A DNA stretch of 64,000 bases from contig NZ_CP131131.1 in assembly GCF_033705735.1 (NCBI RefSeq), forward strand, positions 186,001 to 250,000, in the 5' to 3' direction. Position 1 is the first letter of the stretch; each line of letters opens with the position of its first letter. A program made the translations under genes and the position numbers. A model generated the notes under the pieces. That model saw only the letters and a list, made by a program, of their open reading frames with translations. It ran no database searches and was not told the DNA's origin. Source of the DNA: Shinella zoogloeoides. GTDB taxonomy: Bacteria; Pseudomonadota; Alphaproteobacteria; Rhizobiales; Rhizobiaceae. This document shows positions 6,642 to 33,508 of the stretch, one piece after another.

Positions 6642-7450
6642 TCATCACCGCCGATCTCGGAAGGCGCACACTCCAGCCAGCCCGCCACCTCACGGATGGC
6701 GCCAGCGCGGTTCGTGTTCTTCCCGGTGATGATGGAATCGGCCGCAAGGAAGATGCTCGCCAGCTTCGGGTGAAGCTCAGGCCGGATCGCTTCCTTCCAG
6801 GTATCCTTCGCCGATACGAGAACGCCGCGCTTGGCCGGCCCGTCGAGATCATCCTGAACGGTGATCGCGAACAGCTTGGCCGCGCATTCCATGAAGAGCG
6901 CACGGTCGGCTTCCGTCATCTCGGTTGATGGGGAGGACGGAGACGAGGCGGAGGGGGATGACGCCTCGCCTCCGTCCTGTTGCGACGAGGGCGGGGGGAC
7001 CTCGTCGGCATCCGGCGACTGACCCGAGGGGGACTGGTCCGCTGCCGCCGAATTGGTGTTGGATTCCTGCGGCTCCTTGAACGCGACATTGCGTTCAGCG
7101 CCGAAGGCGTAGATGAGCTCGATCAGGTTGCTCATCTCTTCCACGGTCATTGCCGAGGTGCTGAGGCCGAGTGGGACAACCGTGCCGGCGTCGATGCCGG
7201 GAATTACGTTGGCCTTGCGCAGCGAGGCCGTGAACATCGTCTTCCAGTCTTCGGGATCCAGCTTGGAGCCGTACCAGTCGACCTGTTCGGACACCTCCGC
7301 CAACATGGCGTGCATCTTGGCGTTCTGTTCATGGCTGCGGGTTTTCTTGCGGAACTCGACGATGGTGCCTTCCGGTACCTTCTCGGCCCAGCGGGCGACC
7401 TTCTCGCGGTCTTCCCGGGTGTTGATGGTGACAGCGGCGCGCGTGGTCAT
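6638..7450 (-). CDS. NinB-family recombination protein
   Basis: 270 residues. Residues 1-125 match the lambda NinB/Orf family: RSHEQNAKMHAMLAEVSEQV at 38-57, then DPEDWKTMFTASLRKA and VVPLGLSTSAMTVEEM...LIELIYAFG. Lambda Orf binds single-stranded DNA and stands in for host RecFOR when loading recombinases. A Ser/Pro/Asp linker (about 128-178) leads to a second small helical domain (179-270) absent from lambda Orf. The gene is coupled by ATGA to the exonuclease gene, forming an ERF-exonuclease-NinB recombination unit. Confidence 0.85.
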   Translation of the reverse strand: MTTRAAVTINTREDREKVARWAEKVPEGTIVEFRKKTRSHEQNAKMHAMLAEVSEQVDWYGSKLDPEDWKTMFTASLRKANVIPGIDAGTVVPLGLSTSAMTVEEMSNLIELIYAFGAERNVAFKEPQESNTNSAAADQSPSGQSPDADEVPPPSSQQDGGEASSPSASSPSSPSTEMTEADRALFMECAAKLFAITVQDDLDGPAKRGVLVSAKDTWKEAIRPELHPKLASIFLAADSIITGKNTNRAGAIREVAGWLECAPSEIGGDE

Positions 7451-8082
7451 GCTGCCTCCTGCTCATAGATCCGGCGGAGGGCATCGACCTTCGTCTCAAC
7501 CTCTTCCATCAGGAACGCCACGACTTCTCGCTCAAGGCTTTCGATCACGGCAACGTCCCGCTCCACGCGCTTGACGAAGAGCTGCATGCTCTCGGGAAGG
7601 CGAGGGTCGTAGGAGACGAAGTCACACCATGCCCGGCCCGTGCATGCCATCTGCCATTGCATCTGAGTGATGTACTTGGCCGGGATCGTCTGCTTGATCA
7701 GCGTGTCGATGTGAGTTGCCGTGTTCGGGCACTTGATTTCGACAAGCCCGTTTTCGCCCACAAGGCCGTCAGGAGAGGCGCCAGCGTCCGGGATGGATGG
7801 ATGCACCACGAAAGCGACCTGCTCGACAGTGACGTCGTGCATGAACTCGTAGGCCATGCGAGCGTTCGGCTCGTGATCCGTTCCCCACTGCATGGCGGCG
7901 TTGGTGAAGCCTTCGGCCGCAACGCCCGTCAGACGCTCGGCTATGAGCTCGGCGGCATAGTTGGTGCGGGAGGCTCCCCAGCCCTTGGATGTCTGGGCGA
8001 TGACATCGGCAACGCGGGAAGCAGTCACCTTGCCGCAGCGAAGTGCATGCCACTCTGCTGACCCTTGAACGATCTCATCCAT
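7447..8082 (-). CDS. YqaJ-type (lambda exonuclease-like) viral recombinase nuclease
   Basis: 211 residues from the ATG at 8082, which overlaps the annealing protein's stop by 8 bp. The N-terminus has SAEWHALRCGKVTASR; the nuclease core shows Glu71, GASPDGLVG with Asp105, and VEIKCPN with Glu115 and Lys117, the D...ExK triad of the PD-(D/E)XK superfamily. A C-terminal Q-x-QWQMACTGR...DFVSYDPR completes the family pattern. Such enzymes resect one strand from double-strand ends, producing the single strands that the adjacent ERF protein anneals. Length is typical for the family. Confidence 0.9.
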   Translation of the reverse strand: MDEIVQGSAEWHALRCGKVTASRVADVIAQTSKGWGASRTNYAAELIAERLTGVAAEGFTNAAMQWGTDHEPNARMAYEFMHDVTVEQVAFVVHPSIPDAGASPDGLVGENGLVEIKCPNTATHIDTLIKQTIPAKYITQMQWQMACTGRAWCDFVSYDPRLPESMQLFVKRVERDVAVIESLEREVVAFLMEEVETKVDALRRIYEQEAA

Positions 8083-8935
8083 TTGCTGCCACCTTCCGCT
8101 TTTTGGTTTCGAGCATGCTGATCGCACGGCGGAACTTCACCGCCGGCATGTCGGCAATGCTGTCGATCTGGAGGACTTCGCAGAACTTGGCCGTGTCGGA
8201 GCCGGTCTCCTCGATCATCGTCAGGATGATTTCGCGCTCCGCCTCGGTAATCGCGCCGGTATCGTCGGCCTTCGCACCATCGTCGTCAGCCGCTGCGGCT
8301 AGACCGAGCGCAGCCTTGAGGGTGTAGCGCTGGAGATAGGTCACGGTGGACCCGATAGCCTGGATGCTGTTCTTGTTTCCGCTTTCATCCCGGCCGGCCA
8401 TGAGGGTGTTTTCCTCGCTATGGCCCATGCGGTGCGAAATGATGCAGGTGACGGAAATCGGCTGGTTCGGCTCCGCCTGTGTGCGATAGCGGACGGAGAG
8501 ACCGTTGGCCGATAGGACCGGGCCGACTTGGTTCATGATCGAGGCGAGGTCTTCGTACTGGTAATTGGTGCGGCCCTTCTGAGTCGTGAAGTCCACCTTC
8601 CGCGATTTGACGATCGCCGGCATGTTGGCCTTGGCCGACGCCATAGCCTCGTCGAAAGCCTTGCGGGCCTGATTGGCTTCCCAGCGCTCCTGAAGGTTCA
8701 TGAGCTGCGTCAGGGTCTCGACGTTGGCGCCCTGCGACACTGCGCGGTCCAGCATCTCCATAGGGGTGACGACGGCGCGTTCTCCCGCCTGCATGGCGGT
8801 CGAGCTCGGCTGCTGAATTTCGATGGCGTTGGCCATAGCGAACTCCTTGCGTTTCTTGTCGATGTTTTCGAGAGCGAGGGCGGCGGCGGTACCGAGCGGG
8901 ATTTCCGGGCCTCGCGGATCGATAATATTGGTCAT
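8075..8935 (-). CDS. erf: ERF-family single-strand annealing protein
   Basis: 286 residues from the ATG at 8935 (TGATG junction); the further upstream frame to 9034 overlaps the previous gene and is rejected. Residues 92-225 form the ERF domain: RKAFDEAMASAKANMPAIVK, then YQYEDLASIMNQVGPVLSANG and the conserved end GSTVTYLQRYTLKAALGL. ERF proteins form rings on single-stranded DNA and catalyse annealing, used by phages to circularise or repair genomes. It is paired with the YqaJ nuclease, as expected for a two-component recombinase. An internal ATG at 8836 preceded by AAGGAG is a possible alternative start. Confidence 0.9.
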   Translation of the reverse strand: MTNIIDPRGPEIPLGTAAALALENIDKKRKEFAMANAIEIQQPSSTAMQAGERAVVTPMEMLDRAVSQGANVETLTQLMNLQERWEANQARKAFDEAMASAKANMPAIVKSRKVDFTTQKGRTNYQYEDLASIMNQVGPVLSANGLSVRYRTQAEPNQPISVTCIISHRMGHSEENTLMAGRDESGNKNSIQAIGSTVTYLQRYTLKAALGLAAAADDDGAKADDTGAITEAEREIILTMIEETGSDTAKFCEVLQIDSIADMPAVKFRRAISMLETKKRKVAANG

Positions 8936-10446: not shown

Positions 10447-10503
10447 CTTTATCTTTTTTAGATTCAGCTCTTGAGACGGAGATTGTTAGAAGGGTGAGGG
10501 GTA

Positions 10504-11187
10504 TCAGGCAGCGCCAGCCAAGGCGACGTAGTGCACTGAATGCACCTGGCCGGACGGGAAGCGCAGCTCCTTCGCCGGGTTGAATTGCTCCAAAACAAGC
10601 TCAACCGCGTTGTGCCGGATGAATTTTTTGACGAATGCGAGAAGCGGGCCCTCGTCTTCGGTGCGGATTTGGACGATCACGTAATCGCCCTTCTTCACGC
10701 GGCGCTTCGGATCGACGAAGCAAATCTCGCCGTCCTCGTACCGTGGGTACATCGAATCGCCGGAGACCATCACCGCGTACGCCCCGGAAGATGCGGAAAC
10801 TGATGGAGGCGCCAGCACCTCGAACAATACGCTTCCGTTCATTGCAAACTCACCGTCTACGCCACCCACCGCCTGCCCATAAACCGGGATCTTGCGGCCT
10901 ATGCCCTCCACTTTACCGCGAATCCGCGCATTTGGAAGGTGAAATGGTGATTCGTCGTAAACCGGCGGCGGCTCGACGAGGTGAGGGGCGCTATCCTCAG
11001 GCCATCCGAACATCAAGATTTCAGCAGTCACGCCTAGTCGTGGCCCGATCTTCTCGGCCCATTCTTTCGTGAGCTTCCGTTCTCCGGTCTCCAAGCGCTT
11101 GATCTGAGGCTGAGAGGTGCCAACGGCCTCGGCCAGCTCTGATTGCGTCAGACCATGCTTCTCGCGCAAATCCTTGATCATGTTCAT
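10504..11187 (-). CDS. CI-like phage repressor (XRE HTH + S24 domain)
   Basis: 227 residues. Residues 3-55 are an XRE helix-turn-helix (LREKHGLTQSELAEAVGTSQ...IKRLETGERKL). Residues 97-215 are an S24/LexA-like dimerisation domain with VSGDSMYPRYEDGEI (Ser145) and a Lys at 187/188 for the Ser-Lys dyad. At the expected self-cleavage site the sequence reads GQAVGG instead of the usual Ala-Gly, so RecA-stimulated cleavage may be altered or replaced by another induction route. It is divergent from cro across three operators. Its promoter predicts a transcript starting at the first ATG (11187). It maintains lysogeny by repressing both early arms. Confidence 0.9.
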   Translation of the reverse strand: MNMIKDLREKHGLTQSELAEAVGTSQPQIKRLETGERKLTKEWAEKIGPRLGVTAEILMFGWPEDSAPHLVEPPPVYDESPFHLPNARIRGKVEGIGRKIPVYGQAVGGVDGEFAMNGSVLFEVLAPPSVSASSGAYAVMVSGDSMYPRYEDGEICFVDPKRRVKKGDYVIVQIRTEDEGPLLAFVKKFIRHNAVELVLEQFNPAKELRFPSGQVHSVHYVALAGAA

Positions 11188-11193
11188 GTTTCC

Positions 11194-11222
11194 ATTTTAT
11201 TCCGAACTGGCATAACAATCAA
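11194..11222 (-). promoter_or_regulatory. Candidate repressor-maintenance promoter
   Basis: On the minus strand TTGATT (11222-11217) and TAAAAT (11199-11194) are 17 bp apart. The start is predicted within a base or two of the repressor ATG at 11187, giving a leaderless message like lambda cI from PRM. The operator at 11199-11213 overlaps the spacer, so high repressor levels would shut this promoter off. Confidence 0.6.
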
Positions 11223-11271
11223 AAACCAGAACGGTATATTTTTCACTTGCCAATAAATGCCATTTCGGTAT
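11199..11271. promoter_or_regulatory. Right operators, three copies of the 15-bp palindrome
   Basis: Sites at 11199-11213 (minus strand ATGCCAGTTCGGAAT), 11223-11237 (AAACCAGAACGGTAT) and 11257-11271 (ATGCCATTTCGGTAT) fit the same 15-bp pattern as the left operators, with centres 24 and 34 bp apart. The last covers the spacer and -10 of the cro promoter, the first covers the repressor promoter. The middle copy is degenerate in its left half, as expected for a weaker site filled cooperatively. Confidence 0.75.
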
Positions 11272-11274
11272 TTT
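11247..11274 (+). promoter_or_regulatory. Candidate cro promoter (PR-like)
   Basis: TTGCCA (11247-11252) and TATTTT (11269-11274) are 16 bp apart and read toward cro. The start is predicted at about 11281, one base before the cro ATG, so this message too would be leaderless or nearly so. The operator at 11257-11271 overlaps the spacer and the start of the -10 box. Confidence 0.5.
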
Positions 11275-11281
11275 GAGCGAC

Positions 11282-11482
11282 ATGAAACTCGGAACCTTCA
11301 TCAAATCACGGGACATGTCGCACGAAGCCTTCGGGAAGATCGTCGGCGTCACCCAGGCAACGATCAACCGGTATGTGCGCGGTGAACGTTTTCCGTCGCC
11401 GGAGATGATCCGCAAAATCCAAGACGCAACAGACGGGTCGGTCAATGTTGCCGATTGGTACGAGCCGGAGGCGGCAGAGTGA
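11282..11482 (+). CDS. Cro-like XRE-family repressor
   Basis: 66 residues starting at the ATG at 11282 (MKLGTFIKSRDMSHEAFGKI). The helix-turn-helix spans about residues 11-40, with VGVTQATINRYVRGERFPS as turn and recognition helix. Size, position and divergence from an S24 repressor across three shared operators make it a Cro analogue, which would lower repressor synthesis on entry to lytic growth. An in-frame TTG at 11273 inside the operator is less likely as start. Its stop overlaps the next start as TGATG. Confidence 0.85.
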   Translation: MKLGTFIKSRDMSHEAFGKIVGVTQATINRYVRGERFPSPEMIRKIQDATDGSVNVADWYEPEAAE

Positions 11483-12435
11483 TGCTCAAAGCTGTCGAGA
11501 ACACCCAACTCGCTTTCAACTACGACATCGTACCGGAGCCGGTTGCTATTCAGGCCCGTGAAGCGGCCCAGCGCATCAAGCTCCGCCTTCGCCGGTCGGC
11601 CGAGGACATCATCGAGATCGGTCGCGACCTTCTGGCTGTGAAGGAGAGGATCGGGCACGGCAACTTCACGCCTTGGCTTCAGGCTGAGTTTGGAATGAGC
11701 GAGCATACTGCCCGACGGTTTATGGGGGTCGCTCGTCAGTTCGGAGACAAAACGAGCATCGTGCGCGATTTGGACCCGACCGCTCTGTACGAACTGGCCG
11801 CTCCGAAGACGCCGATCGAAGTTCGCGAAGAGATCGAGAAGATGATCGAAGCGGGGGAGGTCGTCACCAAAGCGACCATCGCTCAGCTCAATGCTGAGAT
11901 CGAAACGGCTAAGAAGGGGCGAGAGCTGGCGGACAATGACGCTGCCGCCGCAGAAGAAAAAGCTTCGACCCTCAAGGCTGATCTGGATGGCCTGAACGGT
12001 TCTATCGATGAACGCGTGTCTGTCGAAGTAGCCAAGACATCCGCGGAAATTCGGTCTGGTTACGAAGAAGAGATCGAGCGCCTTAAGGCTCAACTCGATG
12101 AGTTTCTCAAGCCGAAGAACACCACCACCATTGATAACGAAACGGGCAACATCGTCCAGTTCCACCGCGAACTGACGCCGGACGAGGCGGCAAACGTTGA
12201 CGCCGCCGACGATGAACTGATTGGCGCCGACTTCAATGAAGTCGCGTCCGAAACCGAAAGAGCAATCGCCTTCTTCGGCGCTGTCCGGGCCATGTCGAGC
12301 GCTAAGGCCAACCCGGCGGCGGTGTACGCGTACATCACCAAGCGCACCTCCCAAGATCTCATCAACGAATACATGGGCATGGTCGGCGACGTCCTTTCCC
12401 AGCTTCAGGCCATAAAGGAAATGGACAATGTCTAA
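11482..12435 (+). CDS. DUF3102 coiled-coil protein
   Basis: 317 residues. Residues 25-95 carry the DUF3102 pattern: IIEIGRDLLAVKERIGHGNF, then PWLQAEFGMSEHTARRFMGV, a helix-turn-helix-like unit found in proteins near plasmid and phage replication genes. Residues 125-215 are a long Ala/Glu/Lys coiled coil, followed by an acidic linker and a helical C-terminal domain (ETERAIAFFGAVRAM). It is the first gene after cro and therefore among the earliest expressed. A DNA-binding role in early regulation or partition-like functions is plausible but unproven. Confidence 0.75.
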   Translation: MLKAVENTQLAFNYDIVPEPVAIQAREAAQRIKLRLRRSAEDIIEIGRDLLAVKERIGHGNFTPWLQAEFGMSEHTARRFMGVARQFGDKTSIVRDLDPTALYELAAPKTPIEVREEIEKMIEAGEVVTKATIAQLNAEIETAKKGRELADNDAAAAEEKASTLKADLDGLNGSIDERVSVEVAKTSAEIRSGYEEEIERLKAQLDEFLKPKNTTTIDNETGNIVQFHRELTPDEAANVDAADDELIGADFNEVASETERAIAFFGAVRAMSSAKANPAAVYAYITKRTSQDLINEYMGMVGDVLSQLQAIKEMDNV

Positions 12436-26857: not shown

Positions 26858-27343
26858 ATGCCAGTCCTGAAAAATGCACGGCATGAAGCGTTCGCCCAAG
26901 CACTCGCCAAGGGCATGACCGCAACTGACGCATACTCGGCGGCTGGTTACAAGGGTGACAGGACAGCCGCCTCTAGGTTGTCAACAAATGTCAACGTCAG
27001 TCAACGTGTGAACGAGATCAAGAGTCGAGTAGCCGAGAAAGCCGAGTGGACGGCCGCTGACAGGCTTTCGGCACTCAAGAGCATCTTTGACAGGGAAGCC
27101 GAAAAAGACGCGCGTGTGGCCATCTCTGCCATCGCAGAGGCGAACAAGATGCAGGGGAGCTATGCCCCGACCAAGCGCGAACTGTCCGGACCGGGTGGTG
27201 GTGCTATTCCGATCGACCTGACCAACGCAACGGATGATGAGCTTGCAGCACTCAAGGCCATCTTCGGTCCTCTTGCCGGTGGAGCCGGCGACGATGATGC
27301 GAGCGATCCGAGCGGAGGAAGTGAGGAGAGCAGCGGAGCGTGA
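26858..27343 (+). CDS. terS: Terminase small subunit
   Basis: 161 residues. The N-terminal helix-turn-helix (HEAFAQALAKGMTATDAYSA, AGYKGDRTAASRLSTN) is typical of small terminases of the Terminase_2/phBC6A51-like groups, followed by a helical oligomerisation part (RLSALKSIFDREAEKDARVA) and an acidic C-terminal tail that would contact the large subunit. It binds the packaging site and presents DNA to the motor. It overlaps the large subunit gene by 50 bp. Confidence 0.8.
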   Translation: MPVLKNARHEAFAQALAKGMTATDAYSAAGYKGDRTAASRLSTNVNVSQRVNEIKSRVAEKAEWTAADRLSALKSIFDREAEKDARVAISAIAEANKMQGSYAPTKRELSGPGGGAIPIDLTNATDDELAALKAIFGPLAGGAGDDDASDPSGGSEESSGA

Positions 27344-28763
27344 GCGCGAAAGGCTCGCCAAGGATGCGGAGCGCATACGGGCGCGCTGCCAAACCCTGGC
27401 TGGCTTCGTTCGTGAGGCATGGCATGTGCTGGAGCCTACGGCGAAATATACGCATGGCTGGCATATCGATGCGATCTGCGCCCATCTGGAGGCGGTGACG
27501 GACGGTCAGATCAACCGGCTGCTGATCAACGTCCCGCCGGGTTCTTCGAAGTCACTGCTGGTCTCGGTCATGTGGCAGGCATGGGAGTGGGGGCCTCGTG
27601 GGCTTCCGTCCATGCGATACCTCACCACGTCGTTCAACGATGGGCCGGTGAAGCGCGACACCCGTAAGTGCCGCGACCTCATGCTCTCGGACTGGTATCG
27701 CTCCCTCTGGCCCGAGGTCGAGCTGAACCGCACCGGGGAGACATCGTTCTCGAACACGAAGACCGGGACGCGGGAAGGGGTGCCGTTCGGCTCTCTGACC
27801 TCCCAGCGCGGCGACCGGCTAGTGATAGACGACCCGCATTCGACCGAGACGGCGGAATCAGCAGCCGACCGGCTGGCCACCACTCGAAAGTTCCGCGAGG
27901 GCGCGCAGAACCGATTGAACGACCAGGAACGGTCGGCAATCGTCGTCATCATGCAGCGCCTGCACGAGGAGGACGTGTCGGGCGTCATCCACGAAGTCGG
28001 AATGGAATACGTCCATCTCATGCTCCCGATGGAATTCGAGCCGGAACGGGCTTGCTCTACGGAGATCGGGTTCACGGACCCTCGCAAGGAAGAAGGCGAG
28101 CTTCTAGACCCCGTCCGCTTCCCGCGTGACGCAGTGGAGAAGCTGAAGCGCGACATGGGCAGCTATGCCTATGCCGGGCAGTATCAGCAGCGCCCAGCGC
28201 CTCGCTCTGGCGGTATGTTCCAGCGGGGGGACTTTGAGATTGTGGATGCGGTTCCGGCAGGCGGGCAGGAATGCCGCGCTTGGGACTTCGCGGCATCGAA
28301 AGAGACGCCCGGCAAGCAACCGGACTGGACGGTCGGGCTCAAGATGAAGCACATCGGCGGCGTCTTCTATGTCGAAGACGTGAAGCGGGACAGGTGGTCT
28401 CCCGGCGACGTCGAGAAGAACCTGAAAAACACGGCCACACAGGATGGCCAGAACGTGCGTATCCGAATGCCGCAGGATCCGGGTGCCGCTGGCAAGGCCG
28501 ACGCGAATACGAAGATCAAGCTTCTCGCTGGCTACGATGTGAAGGCCCAACCCGTAACCGGTGACAAGGCCACTCGAGCCAAGCCAGCATCGGCCCAGGC
28601 GGAGGCTGGGAACGTGAAGCTTCTGCGGGGCAACTGGAACAAGGCATTCCTCGATGAGGTGTGCTCGTTCCCCAACTCGCAACATGACGACCAGGTCGAT
28701 GCCTTCGCCGATGCTCTGAACGAGCTGGCGCTCGGCTCCACCTTCACTCTTGCCAACGTCTAG
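27294..28763 (+). CDS. terL: Terminase large subunit
   Basis: 489 residues from the ATG at 27294 (GGAG nine bases before). Residues 1-45 are a charged helix. The ATPase domain has Walker A NVPPGSSKS at about 79-87 and Walker B RLVIDDPH with the two Asp at about 179-180. The C-terminal RNase H-like nuclease has WDFAASKETPGKQPDWT (first Asp), QDPGAAGK and the final HDDQVDAFADAL. It translocates DNA into the prohead using ATP and cuts it. The gene starts inside terS in another frame, a usual coupling. Confidence 0.9.
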   Translation: MMRAIRAEEVRRAAERERERLAKDAERIRARCQTLAGFVREAWHVLEPTAKYTHGWHIDAICAHLEAVTDGQINRLLINVPPGSSKSLLVSVMWQAWEWGPRGLPSMRYLTTSFNDGPVKRDTRKCRDLMLSDWYRSLWPEVELNRTGETSFSNTKTGTREGVPFGSLTSQRGDRLVIDDPHSTETAESAADRLATTRKFREGAQNRLNDQERSAIVVIMQRLHEEDVSGVIHEVGMEYVHLMLPMEFEPERACSTEIGFTDPRKEEGELLDPVRFPRDAVEKLKRDMGSYAYAGQYQQRPAPRSGGMFQRGDFEIVDAVPAGGQECRAWDFAASKETPGKQPDWTVGLKMKHIGGVFYVEDVKRDRWSPGDVEKNLKNTATQDGQNVRIRMPQDPGAAGKADANTKIKLLAGYDVKAQPVTGDKATRAKPASAQAEAGNVKLLRGNWNKAFLDEVCSFPNSQHDDQVDAFADALNELALGSTFTLANV

Positions 28764-28771
28764 GGAAGCCC

Positions 28772-30613
28772 ATGGGAAACGTATTCGCCTTCGCTCGTGA
28801 CAGCCTCACGAGCCTGGTGTCCCGTATGGGCACTGACCGAGACAAGGCAGCCACCACCTTCTATGCCAGCACGGTCCTATCGGACGAGCAGCTTATCGCG
28901 GCCTACAGCACCGCTTGGCTGCCGCGGAAGATCGTGGATATCCCCGCGTTGGATGCGTGCCGCAAGTGGCGAGACTGGCAGGCGAAGAAGCCCCAGATTG
29001 AGGCCATCGAGGAGGAAGAGAAGCGCCTGAACGTCAAGGGCAAGATCCTTGAGGCGGCGAAGAAGGGGCGCCTGTTCGGTGGTGCTGCCGTCTATATCGG
29101 GACAGGTGACGCCAATCCTGCCGAACCGCTCGATGTGGAGCGCATCAAGAAGGGAGGCGTCCGCTATCTCAATGTGATCACTCGGCGCCGGCTGAATGCC
29201 GGCGAGATCGATCGCAACCCGGAGTCCGAATGGTTCGGGAAGCCGATGAACTACACGCTGGCCGGCAACAATGGGCAGCAGATCACCATCCATCCGTCGC
29301 GATTGGTGCTGTTCTCAGGGGCGATGCCCGCCGATGACGAGATCAGTACGAACGTTTGGCAGGGTTGGGGCGATAGCGTTCTTCAGTCCACCCTCGATGC
29401 GATTAAGAACGCGGACAGCACGGCCGGCAACATCGCTTCCCTCGTGTTCGAAGCGAAGATCGATATCATCCGCATTCCGAACTTCATGGCCTCGTTGGGG
29501 CAGGCGGAGTATCGCAACAAACTGCTGGAGAGGTACGCGCTCGCCAACACGGCCAAGGGCATAAACGGCACGCTTCTCCTCGACAAGGAGGAGGAGTATG
29601 AGACGAAGACGGCACAGCTCACGGGCCTCCCCGATGTCCTGATGACCTTCCTGCAGATCGTGGCGGGTGCGGCCGATATCCCGGTGACGCGCCTTTTGGG
29701 GCAGTCGCCGGCCGGCCTGAACTCGACCGGCACGGCGGACATGAAGAACTACCACGACCGCATCCAGTCGATGCAGGAGCTGGAGTTTCAACCTGCAATG
29801 GTGAGGCTCGATGAATGTCTCGAGCGATCGGCCGATGTCCGCGATCCCGATGTGCATTATCGCTGGGCACCGTTGGAGCAGATGAGCGAGAAGGAGCGGG
29901 CCGATATCTTCAAGATCACGGCCGATGCCGCCCGCCAGCTGGTGGGGACGACGGCCGGCCAGGAGATCGTGCCGCGCGAGGCAGTGTCCGACGCTCTCGT
30001 CAATCGGCTAGTCGAGGACGGCGTTCTGCCGGGTCTCGACGCCGCGATCGAGGAATACGGCAAGCTGAGCGAGCAGGAACCCTCCGAAGAGGAGCTAGCC
30101 GCCGCAACAGCCGCACAGGAAGCGAAGACCGCCAACGTGGCCCAGATGTCAGCTGAGACTAATGACGCCGCTCCTCGCACGCTCTACGTCCGCCGTGACG
30201 TCCTGAACGCGTCCGAGGTCATCAAGTGGGCCGAAGGGCAGGGCTTCACCGATATCGTGCCCGACCTGCACGTGACCATCACCTACAGCCGCACACCGGT
30301 TGATTGGATGAAGATGGGCGACAACTGGTCGGACAACGGCAAGGGCGGACTGACCATCCCGGCCGGCGGCCCGCGCCTCATGGAAGCATTCGGCGACAAT
30401 GGCGAGGCCAAGGTGCTTTCGTTCGCGTCGAGCGCTCTGTCATGGCGACATGAGGACATGAAGCGCAACGGCGCATCGTCTGACCGGGAGGACTACCAGC
30501 CTCACGTAACGATCAGCTATGCGGCAGGCGGCCCAGACTTGAGCAGCGTCGAGCCGTACAGGGGTAAGATTGAACTCGGCCCGGAAATCTTCGAAGAGCT
30601 TCGCGAGGACTGA
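28772..30613 (+). CDS. Portal protein (DUF1073) fused to Acb1-type anti-CBASS domain
   Basis: 613 residues. Residues 1-440 are a DUF1073-type portal (LSDEQLIAAYSTAWLPRKIV, RLLGQSPAGLNSTGTADMKN), the twelve-fold ring for DNA passage. After an Ala/Glu-rich linker, residues 456-610 form a separate domain with two H-x-T motifs, LHVTITYS (His500, Thr502) and PHVTISY (His578, Thr580), the 2H phosphoesterase signature of Acb1, which hydrolyses cyclic nucleotides that trigger CBASS immunity. The fused order is known from family databases for DUF1073 proteins. Here a structural protein would carry an anti-defence enzyme. Catalysis in this protein is inferred. Confidence 0.85.
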   Translation: MGNVFAFARDSLTSLVSRMGTDRDKAATTFYASTVLSDEQLIAAYSTAWLPRKIVDIPALDACRKWRDWQAKKPQIEAIEEEEKRLNVKGKILEAAKKGRLFGGAAVYIGTGDANPAEPLDVERIKKGGVRYLNVITRRRLNAGEIDRNPESEWFGKPMNYTLAGNNGQQITIHPSRLVLFSGAMPADDEISTNVWQGWGDSVLQSTLDAIKNADSTAGNIASLVFEAKIDIIRIPNFMASLGQAEYRNKLLERYALANTAKGINGTLLLDKEEEYETKTAQLTGLPDVLMTFLQIVAGAADIPVTRLLGQSPAGLNSTGTADMKNYHDRIQSMQELEFQPAMVRLDECLERSADVRDPDVHYRWAPLEQMSEKERADIFKITADAARQLVGTTAGQEIVPREAVSDALVNRLVEDGVLPGLDAAIEEYGKLSEQEPSEEELAAATAAQEAKTANVAQMSAETNDAAPRTLYVRRDVLNASEVIKWAEGQGFTDIVPDLHVTITYSRTPVDWMKMGDNWSDNGKGGLTIPAGGPRLMEAFGDNGEAKVLSFASSALSWRHEDMKRNGASSDREDYQPHVTISYAAGGPDLSSVEPYRGKIELGPEIFEELRED

Positions 30614-30897
30614 TGGCTGAGCGCCTGTCCTGTTGCGTCCCATTCTGCCGGCGAACGACAAAGCCGGATTGCAGCGAGTGGATATGCGGGTCGCATTGGA
30701 TGGCTGTGTCTTCTCGGCTGAGACGGCGCAAGTACCGGCTCTTCCGGGTCTACAAGCGCCGCTTCGGGAACAATGGGTTCTGGGTCTATCCAGTAGGATC
30801 ACCGGAGCGCCTTGAGGCTGTGAGGCTCGACAGGCTGTGCCGCAAGGCATGGGAGCATTGCAAGCGGGCAGCAATCGAGACCGCAGCGGGCATCTAA
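30613..30897 (+). CDS. Cys-rich basic hypothetical protein
   Basis: 94 residues, TGATG-coupled to the portal gene. CCVPFCRR, then DCSEWICGSHW forms a C4-type cluster near residues 7-28, followed by very basic helices (RLRRRKYRLFRVYKRRF). It may bind nucleic acid through zinc. No virion role is known. Confidence 0.6.
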   Translation: MAERLSCCVPFCRRTTKPDCSEWICGSHWMAVSSRLRRRKYRLFRVYKRRFGNNGFWVYPVGSPERLEAVRLDRLCRKAWEHCKRAAIETAAGI

Positions 30898-30907
30898 GGA
30901 AACGATC

Positions 30908-32041
30908 ATGCAATTCACCGACGCTGTAGCGGTGTCCGGCACGCGTCGGACGGCCGATGGATATCTCGTCGCCGAAGCGCGGTCTGTGCGCACCGGCATC
31001 CAGCTTTACGCGGGCTCCGAGGTCGGGAAACCGGAACTGCCCGTGGTGCGCGTCTACCGCCCCGCCGATCAGGTCTTTTCCGACGCCAGCCTTCAGAGCT
31101 TCACCCATGCCCCGGTGACCATGGATCACCCGGCGGAGGCGGTCACTGCCGACAACTGGAAGAAGCTCGCCGTTGGCGAGGTCAGCACGGCGGCCAAGAA
31201 GGACGGCGAGTGGGTGCATCTACCGCTCATCCTGAAGGACGCTGCGGCGATCGAGGCCGTCGAGACCGGCAAGCGCGAGCTGTCGGCCGGGTACACCTGC
31301 GAACTCGTCTGGGGCGACGGTGTGGCTCCCGATGGGCAGGCCTACGACGCCCAGCAATCGAACATCAAGATCAACCATCTCGCGATCGTCGATCGGGCGC
31401 GGGCTGGTTCCAAAGCTCGCATCGGCGACGGTGCGATTTCGTGGGGCGCCGCCCCGGTATCTACCACTGACAAGGAGACAGTCGTCATGACTGAAGCACT
31501 TCGGACTGTGGTCGTGGACGGACTGTCGGTTCAGACGACCGACCAGGGCGCCCAGGCCATTTCCAAACTGCAGAAGGATCTCGAATCCTCTGCCGCCAAG
31601 ATCGTTGCCAACGATGCCGCCCACACTGCGGCCATCGCTGCCAAGGATCAGGAGATCGGCACCCTCAAGGCCGATCTCAAGAAGGCGCAGGACGCCGCAC
31701 TGAAGCCCGAGGACGTTGATCGACTCGTCGCCGACCGCGCCGCTCTCGTCCAGACCGTGAAGGCTATCGACGCCAAGATCGAGATCAAGGGCAGCGATGC
31801 CGACCTCCGCCGCGCCGCAGTCAAGGCCAAGCTCGGCGACGACATGATCAAGGACGCTTCCGACGACATGATCACCGGCATGTTCAAGGCCATCGCCAAG
31901 GACGTGAAGCCGGCCGATCCGTTCGCCGCGGTCGTCAAGGATGGTCTCAAGCAGACACTTGACGGCGCGACCGCCTCGGAAAAGGCGTGGTCGGACAGCG
32001 TCACCGACATCAACGCCTGGCGCAATCAGAAGGAGGCCTAA
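30908..32041 (+). CDS. DUF2213 prohead protease with scaffold-like C-terminus
   Basis: 377 residues. Residues 1-185 carry the DUF2213 pattern, with APVTMDHP at 68-75, ELSAGYTCEL (Ser126) and INHLAIVDRARAG (His157), consistent with the Ser-His pair of HK97-like maturation proteases. Residues 195-377 are a long Ala/Lys/Asp coiled coil typical of scaffolds. An internal ribosome site opens this second half separately (next entry). The protease would trim scaffold and capsid during head assembly. Confidence 0.8.
   Translation: MQFTDAVAVSGTRRTADGYLVAEARSVRTGIQLYAGSEVGKPELPVVRVYRPADQVFSDASLQSFTHAPVTMDHPAEAVTADNWKKLAVGEVSTAAKKDGEWVHLPLILKDAAAIEAVETGKRELSAGYTCELVWGDGVAPDGQAYDAQQSNIKINHLAIVDRARAGSKARIGDGAISWGAAPVSTTDKETVVMTEALRTVVVDGLSVQTTDQGAQAISKLQKDLESSAAKIVANDAAHTAAIAAKDQEIGTLKADLKKAQDAALKPEDVDRLVADRAALVQTVKAIDAKIEIKGSDADLRRAAVKAKLGDDMIKDASDDMITGMFKAIAKDVKPADPFAAVVKDGLKQTLDGATASEKAWSDSVTDINAWRNQKEA
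31487..32041 (+). CDS. Nested in-frame scaffold start
   Basis: Inside the protease gene, AAGGAG lies nine bases before an in-frame ATG (residue 194, MTEALRTVVVDGLSVQT). Translation from it would give a 184-residue coiled-coil protein without the protease domain, the same design as lambda Nu3 inside gpC. Sequence supports it; expression is not shown. Confidence 0.5.
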   Translation: MTEALRTVVVDGLSVQTTDQGAQAISKLQKDLESSAAKIVANDAAHTAAIAAKDQEIGTLKADLKKAQDAALKPEDVDRLVADRAALVQTVKAIDAKIEIKGSDADLRRAAVKAKLGDDMIKDASDDMITGMFKAIAKDVKPADPFAAVVKDGLKQTLDGATASEKAWSDSVTDINAWRNQKEA

Positions 32042-32527: not shown

Positions 32528-33508
32528 ATGAACCAGCATTTCAACGACGCGCAGGCCCTCGCGTTCGTCACCGCGCAGGCCTACAAGGTCAATCAGACCG
32601 TCTACGAGGCCCGCTATCCCGATTGGGATTTCGGTCGCCTGATCTTCGTCGATACCTCCGGCCCCGAGTGGTCCCCGGGCGTCCTCACGTACTCGTCCGA
32701 CATGAGCGGCCGCGCCAATTGGCAGGCTGGCGGTGCCAAGGACGTGCCGATGGCCGACGTCAGCCAGGACTACCAGACCAAGAACTTCCATCTGGCGGCC
32801 ATCGGCTACCAGTGGAATATCGAAGAGGTCAACACGACCATGGGCTTCCCCGGCGCCAACCTGCCGGATCGCCGCGCTCGTGCCGCCCGTCTGGCCTACA
32901 TGAAGTTCATGTACGACCTGACCCTCAAGGGCAACACCGAGAAAGGTCTCGGCGGCCTGATCAACTACTCTGGTGTCACCAAGACCGATGCGCCGAACGA
33001 CGGTACTGGTTCTTCCCGCTACTGGGTGGACTCGTCCGGCGTCGGCCAGAAGACCCCGGCGCAGATCGTCCGCGACATCAACATCGCGCTTCAGGGCGTT
33101 TGGCTCGACTCCAAGGAGATCGAGATGGCCGACACCATCTTGCTCCCGATCGAGGCCTACAACTACATCGCCGCCACGCCCTACAGCGCGACGACGATGG
33201 AAACGATCCTGTCGTTCGTGATGCGGACGAACATCTACACCCTGACCACCGGCCGCCCGCTCACGATCCGCACGGTTCGCGAACTCGGCACGGGCGATGC
33301 CGCTGGCACTGCCGGCCGCCTCGTCGCCTACAAGAACGATGCCGAGTATGTGCGCCTGCACCTGCCGATGCCGCATCGCTTCCTGCCGGTCTACCAGGAT
33401 GGCCCGCTGAACTTCGCTGTACCGGGCATCTTCCGCACGGGCGGCGTCGAACTGCTGACGACGGTAGCGATGCGCTATCTCGATCAGATCAGCCAGCCGC
33501 CGGCCTGA
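32528..33508 (+). CDS. Major capsid protein (DUF2184-type)
   Basis: 326 residues. Segments VYEARYPDWDFGRLIFVDT, SSDMSGRANWQAGGAKDVP, NIEEVNTTMGFPGANLPDRR and PLTIRTVRELGTGDA match the DUF2184 capsid family with an HK97 fold. The gene shows strong host-like codon bias, as usual for the most expressed virion gene. It follows the cement gene by three bases. Confidence 0.85.
   Translation: MNQHFNDAQALAFVTAQAYKVNQTVYEARYPDWDFGRLIFVDTSGPEWSPGVLTYSSDMSGRANWQAGGAKDVPMADVSQDYQTKNFHLAAIGYQWNIEEVNTTMGFPGANLPDRRARAARLAYMKFMYDLTLKGNTEKGLGGLINYSGVTKTDAPNDGTGSSRYWVDSSGVGQKTPAQIVRDINIALQGVWLDSKEIEMADTILLPIEAYNYIAATPYSATTMETILSFVMRTNIYTLTTGRPLTIRTVRELGTGDAAGTAGRLVAYKNDAEYVRLHLPMPHRFLPVYQDGPLNFAVPGIFRTGGVELLTTVAMRYLDQISQPPA

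Follow-up and report, generated by a model that had tools for sequence, protein, structure and literature searches.

The last 145 residues of a phage portal protein encoded in Shinella zoogloeoides appear to be an Acb1-family 2H phosphoesterase, carried as removable cargo on a flexible linker. The gene for this 613-aa protein (nucleotides 28772 to 30613, plus strand) lies in the 64,000-nucleotide stretch that we analyzed, hereafter the window, which covers positions 186,001 to 250,000 of the forward strand of contig NZ_CP131131.1 in a genome of 5.79 Mb (G000:C2:186001-250000 in our set). We propose, at a probability of roughly 0.6, that the domain is made late together with the portal and hydrolyzes the signals of cyclic oligonucleotide-based antiphage signaling systems (CBASS) to protect particle production. 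This is the best explanation that we can offer for the computed homology, the Acb1-like predicted fold, the conserved catalytic tetrad, the purifying selection on the domain, its gain, loss, and exchange among portals, and the type III CBASS with a NucC effector in the same genome.

Identity of the C-terminal domain

An earlier prediction made from the letters of the window held that an Acb1-type domain is fused to the C terminus of the portal, and profile searches bear this out. Within a single open reading frame (ORF) on the plus strand, the Phage_portal_3 profile (PF06381) matches residues 40 to 387 (28889 to 29932; E = 1.6e-108) and the Acb1 profile (PF23474) matches residues 469 to 613 (30176 to 30610; E = 9.1e-36; 123.2 bits against a gathering cutoff of 27), so that an enzymatic domain stands in frame with a structural domain of the head. 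The PHROG profile annotated as portal protein (phrog_146) spans residues 7 to 608, the C-terminal part included. The two domains are separated by a linker (residues 435 to 465; 30074 to 30166) that was modeled with low confidence (predicted local distance difference test score [pLDDT] below 50 at residues 435 to 439 and 448 to 465). The domain had originally been placed from 30137 (residue 456) onward; that point falls in the linker, and the domain begins near 30176 (residue 469).

A phmmer search aligned the solved Acb1 chain 7t26 with the domain over both HxT motifs (E = 2.8e-8), and tblastn with the domain returned Erwinia phage FBB1 (37.5% identity across 77% of the query; E = 1e-7) as well as T-even type proteins, some of which are annotated as gp57B. 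When the model was compared with solved structures, a check that the original prediction had proposed, the closest PDB fold was the Acb1 of FBB1, and not a fold unlike that of the 2H enzymes. The match to the Acb1 family is confirmed as far beyond chance. The window domain shares with the Acb1 proteins of T4 and FBB1 a homologous 2H domain with its HxT/HxT tetrad and equivalents of two base-contacting residues, but Acb1 is a free protein in FBB1 (152 residues) and in the T2 record (151 residues), whereas here it is the C-terminal domain of a portal.

The two HxT motifs were found exactly where the prediction had put them, at His500-Val-Thr502 (30269 to 30277) and His578-Val-Thr580 (30503 to 30511), and by sequence alignment the catalytic tetrad H500, T502, H578, and T580 is intact. 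Conservation was read from 66 rows that include the window protein and near-duplicates; among these, L010, L034, and L041 run into a contig end before reaching the portal, L030 has a frame break in the portal, L052 is split by a tandem duplication, and L013, L023, L045, and L057 are carriers other than full PF06381 portals. Both residues of the first motif and the histidine of the second occur in 66 of 66 rows, and position 580 is Thr in 53, Ser in 12, and Gly in 1. The equivalents of Tyr12 and Glu141, which contact the base in characterized Acb1, are likewise present: Tyr472 (30185 to 30187) is Tyr in all 66 rows and belongs to an LYV motif common to the FBB1 and T2 proteins, and Glu608 (30593 to 30595), aligned with the adenine-contacting Glu141 of T4, is Glu in 50 of 66. 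The ratio of nonsynonymous to synonymous substitution rates (dN/dS) is 0.03 to 0.34 in the 11 pairs examined, indicating purifying selection on the domain.

Three other positions to which the text of PMC9117128 assigns roles in T4 Acb1 count against a T4-like function. In the alignment, Trp74 and Phe107 of T4 correspond to M537 and R572 of the window protein, and the equivalent of the lid residue Trp147 is missing, as the protein ends at D613 with its stop codon (30611 to 30613) exactly at that position. The lid Trp is found in 33 of the 65 other carrier rows, 29 rows end there or earlier, and 3 continue without it; many members of the Pfam Acb1 family also lack it. Two conserved tryptophans of the domain, W512 (64 of 66 rows) and W519 (61 of 65), might substitute for Trp74 and Trp147 of T4. 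Given these unmatched positions, T4-like substrate use is less certain, and we limit the claim to family membership by descent. The same positions, which take part in base stacking in T4 Acb1, favor an alternative in which the 2H phosphoesterase would be active but would cleave something else, such as RNA 2',3'-cyclic phosphate ends, 2'-5'-linked RNA, or the cyclic triadenylate (cA3) of type III CRISPR systems. LigT and Usb1 have the same 2H fold, and Iyer et al. (2017; PMC5512222), who describe fusions of 2H domains with MuF or portal domains, suggest in their text that these act as RNases, degrade 2'-5' oligoadenylates, or degrade the nucleotides of defense systems. We consider such a substrate quite unlikely.

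Gain, loss, and exchange of the domain among portals

As relatives we took the best 80 of 133 portals found on viral contigs, with a core identity of 55 to 97%. Acb1 is present in 38 of them, in 41 a tail of only 11 to 49 residues follows the aligned core, and 1 is cut short. On a core tree built from these relatives, the window protein, and 11 named-phage loci (82 tips, without the portal that is cut short, incomplete cores, or repeats of an identical sequence), the presence of Acb1 changes at least 11 times, against a mean of 27 and a minimum of 21 with shuffled labels. Acb1 presence is therefore inherited, yet often gained or lost. The portals L132 and L133 have cores that are 96.7% identical, one with Acb1 and one without.

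An Acb1 remnant or another in-frame domain in the Acb1-less portals was considered and rejected, all 41 tails being of the short kind. At an E value of 1e-3, no Acb1 remnant was detected in 53 of 54 Acb1-less loci, a set that left out L091 (G002), an Acb1-less genome of the same bacterial family whose portal frame was flagged with an in-frame stop. The other locus, L184, has a 25-residue Acb1 match (E = 5e-4) some 440 bases beyond the portal, which may be a remnant or a chance match. Behind two Acb1-less portals that share a tail type lies, in another frame, an ORF for a PBECR3-type nuclease (PF18812; L046, 4538 to 4897, E = 2e-8; L118, 3528 to 3869, E = 3e-10).

This portal type was found in 21 of 247 genomes of the same bacterial family, 12 with a long fused frame (604 to 655 aa) and 9 with a short one (449 to 499 aa). 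One further genome (G086) has Acb1 on a PF04860 portal, and another (G188) has it alone in a 191-residue frame. In all, Acb1 scores over the cutoff in 14 of the 247. A phylum-wide sample of 398 genomes yielded 4 matches at an E value of 1e-3, 2 of them over the cutoff (the window's own included). As sampled, Acb1 carriage is rare outside this bacterial family.

Portal core and Acb1 domain have distinct histories. The window protein is 86 to 87% identical to L015 and L059 in the core and only 62% in Acb1; with L004, the core is only 53% identical and Acb1 81%. Identity to relatives drops and shifts level around residues 441 to 470, which places the breakpoint of exchange near the linker. Trees were computed for 49 of 56 full-length fusions, 7 near-duplicates having been dropped. 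In the core tree, the window protein groups with L059, L015, L014, L047, and L065 (support of 99), and the Acb1 tree has L014 with L029, L015 with L075, and L059 with L056 (100 each) and the window protein with L003 (98). Approximately unbiased tests reject the core tree for Acb1 and the Acb1 tree for the core. This mutual rejection may be due in part to the weakness of the Acb1 tree (149 columns, several low supports), which tempers the case for exchange, although the conflicting groups cited still have supports of 98 to 100%. Between L024 and L031, dN is 0.363 in the core versus 0.041 in Acb1.

These computations show that the Acb1 domain has been exchanged between portals and repeatedly gained or lost. 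It behaves like a swappable cassette and is removable cargo on the portal, not structure. That it is borne by a structural protein of the particle might instead suggest that it now serves the portal structurally or by contacting DNA, with the motifs persisting through the fold alone. Such a role is very improbable: over half of the close relatives do without the domain, near-identical cores differ in having it, its catalytic residues are invariant, and it is carried by three portal families and a protease.

Other carriers of Acb1

One of these carriers is a Mu-type portal (L023). A single 861-residue frame in L008 (163 to 2745) joins a portal to Acb1 and then to a domain of the ADP-ribosyltransferase type (PF03496; E = 4.5e-27). 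Two phages (L045, 2953 to 3846; L098, 2501 to 3355) have an XkdF-type serine protease domain behind Acb1 (PF14550), with 32.6 and 24.4 bits, respectively, against a cutoff of 24, which L098 barely exceeds. In a tree that includes free Acb1 proteins, these carriers fall among the portal domains, mostly with weak support, which leaves the number of fusion events unsettled.

The Roseobacter phage DSS3P8 protein gp129 (L072, 2989 to 3441) was considered as a further fusion and was not counted, being a 150-residue free Acb1-type protein. It is annotated as a prohead protease of the HK97 family, and the Pfam Acb1 profile matches it over nearly its whole length (101 bits), with no protease match. In Synechococcus phage Yong-M3-232 (L052, about 1480 to 1720), portal and Acb1 occupy two overlapping frames, separated by a tandem repeat of about 110 bases that may be genuine or may come from misassembly; in the related Ssp-JY40, portal-Acb1 is one frame.

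A type III CBASS in the host genome

By profile matches, the host genome carries a type III CBASS with a NucC effector. About 1.06 Mb away along the same contig, genes for NucC (PDLC00745), a CD-NTase (PDLC00809), a HORMA protein (PF18173), and TRIP13 (PDLC00915) lie in a row on one strand. This system is the likely matching opponent of the portal Acb1. According to the text of a review (PMC10419184), NucC is switched on by the cyclic trinucleotide cAAA, which the host CD-NTase would presumably make. T4 Acb1, as reported in the text of PMC9117128, degrades cyclic di- and trinucleotides and lifted the infectivity of P1 under type III CBASS by about 1.5 log.

Co-occurrence across genomes is weak and only suggestive, and this detracts from the proposal. 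At the curated cutoff, CD-NTases occur in 4 of 14 Acb1 genomes versus 28 of 233 others (P = 0.09), and at an E value of 1e-3 in 5 of 14 versus 31 of 233 (P = 0.037); without the window's own genome, the count is 3 of 13 (P = 0.22). In eight further genomes, two of which apparently repeat earlier ones (G636, like G083; G637, like G179), a CD-NTase was over the cutoff in one and present at 1e-3 in two. Among genomes with this portal type, a sample that is too small and uncorrected for phylogeny, CD-NTases at 1e-3 occur in 5 of 12 with Acb1 on the portal and 0 of 9 without it (P = 0.039), and at the curated cutoff in 4 of 12 and 0 of 9 (P = 0.083). Co-occurrence does not reach statistical proof.

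In one genome (G060:C19; L085), a pair coding for a CD-NTase and a 2TM effector (7231 to 8852) is directly upstream of terminase and portal-Acb1 genes (10492 to 12330). This prophage, seemingly a single one, may carry both CBASS and an anti-CBASS domain.

Genomic context and proposed mode of action

The window has profile matches for a DnaB-like helicase, terminase, portal, head protease, major head protein, and tape measure, and an integrase-type gene lies about 0.6 kb to the left of its start (C2:185015-185437). These genes mark the region as a prophage of a tailed phage. On the plus strand, the fusion gene is preceded by genes for the small terminase subunit (26858 to 27343; phrog_51, E = 2.1e-14) and the large one (27234 to 28763 as the longest frame, with a true start that may be downstream; PF17289, E = 1.1e-16). 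It is followed by a small ORF (30613 to 30897; weak match to phrog_18063, of unknown function) that overlaps the portal stop by 1 base, a head maturation protease-type gene (DUF2213; 30908 to 32041; phrog_530, E = 1.1e-92; PF09979), and the gene for the major head protein (32528 to 33508; phrog_264, E = 5e-71).

In the mechanism that we favor, the head genes would be expressed late upon induction or infection, and each portal subunit would bring one Acb1 domain. The domain would act in the cytoplasm at that late stage, as the portal and the other head proteins are being produced, and would hydrolyze the cyclic di- or trinucleotides by which CBASS signals an infection; effectors such as the host NucC would stay off until new particles are finished. 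We infer that the enzyme is active, what it cleaves, and that it is expressed late and acts in the cytoplasm. An internal translation start producing free Acb1 was rejected: GTG and ATG codons occur at residues 456 and 459, with no Shine-Dalgarno match of at least 4 bases upstream. In 25 of the 58 loci where a portal was matched, an ATG or GTG lies no more than 32 codons ahead of the domain; 10 loci show a start codon accompanied by a Shine-Dalgarno match, and the start positions vary among the 15 loci listed.

The portal C terminus faces the head interior. The domains, one per subunit inside the head, could instead be carried in, on the model of head-packaged polyvalent proteins: released, perhaps by the head protease, they would enter with the DNA and disarm CBASS from the start. 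A head protease-type gene is indeed encoded close to the portal, and a segment just before the domain, D465-A466-x-P468-R469 (30164 to 30178), a possible processing or docking site, is kept in 63, 62, 64, and 62 of the 66 rows at its four specified positions and is absent from the protease fusion L045 and the free Acb1 proteins compared. The texts of PMC5512222 and PMC9503650 already propose 2H-portal fusions as such effectors, and the former notes that T4 Alt, an ADP-ribosyltransferase like the domain that follows Acb1 in L008, is packaged and injected. A domain bound to the portal, however, cannot leave without release. The portal of phage Pam3 (PDB 8hds) has the same two domains and matches over its full length (E = 2e-160), with HxS as its second motif in place of the HVT of the window protein. 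Its chain sequence has 621 residues versus 442 in the structure library chain, from which it appears that most of the Acb1-equivalent domain was not modeled, being flexible or absent; flexibility and removal account for this alike. We consider entry with the DNA unlikely.

A broader extension of the late-acting proposal, which we put forward tentatively as a rather doubtful possibility, is that the C terminus of head assembly proteins serves as an exchangeable anti-immunity slot. Acb1 would be grafted onto proteins made at the moment of the trigger, the signal would be destroyed in situ, and the cassette would be swapped as local CBASS signals change. The repeated grafting, seen on three portal families and an XkdF-type protease, would then go back to the fact that head assembly sets off at least one CBASS sensor; a prohead protease is reported as sensed by a type I CBASS (cited in the text of PMC12409349). 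If so, the trigger would carry its own antidote, and destruction of the signal would match its production in place and time and would scale with the trigger.

Relationship to known systems and significance

The original prediction saw in the fusion a structural gene turned into an immune evasion device. In agreement with this, the structural gene bears an accessory domain and the host has a CBASS, but both the fusion and the evasion idea had already been published. The polyvalent-class 2H-MuF/portal fusions of PMC5512222 and PMC9503650 have the same architecture and the same proposed role against nucleotide signaling; the latter, a 2022 survey, takes such fusions to suggest packaging, injection, and the countering of SMODS-type signaling. 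In the text compared, these papers name the superfamily and not Acb1 and describe no exchange between portals. Portals do not come up in the main text of Hobbs et al. (2022; PMC9117128; term count of 0), and the literature passages surveyed name no Acb1-portal fusion. Two Rhizobium phages have a full-length portal-Acb1 like that of the window: RHph_TM3_3_3 (core 84% and Acb1 62% identical) and RHEph04 (53% and 60%). The MuF polymorphic toxins described in the text of PMC5576092 also place a variable C-terminal effector on a head protein encoded beside the portal gene; there the carrier is MuF and the cargo toxins, whereas here the carrier is the portal and the cargo Acb1. Within the literature surveyed, the architecture and the immune evasion idea are known, and what we add is the firm Acb1 identity, the cassette behavior, and the matching host CBASS.

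The Acb1 family identity, natural near-identical portals with and without the domain, and a likely opponent in the same genome open the 2017 prediction, that portal-borne 2H domains counteract nucleotide-based immunity, to direct testing. Anti-CBASS capacity can hide under the label "portal protein" in phage annotation. If our reading is true, phages place immune evasion on essential late structural proteins, timed with the immune trigger.
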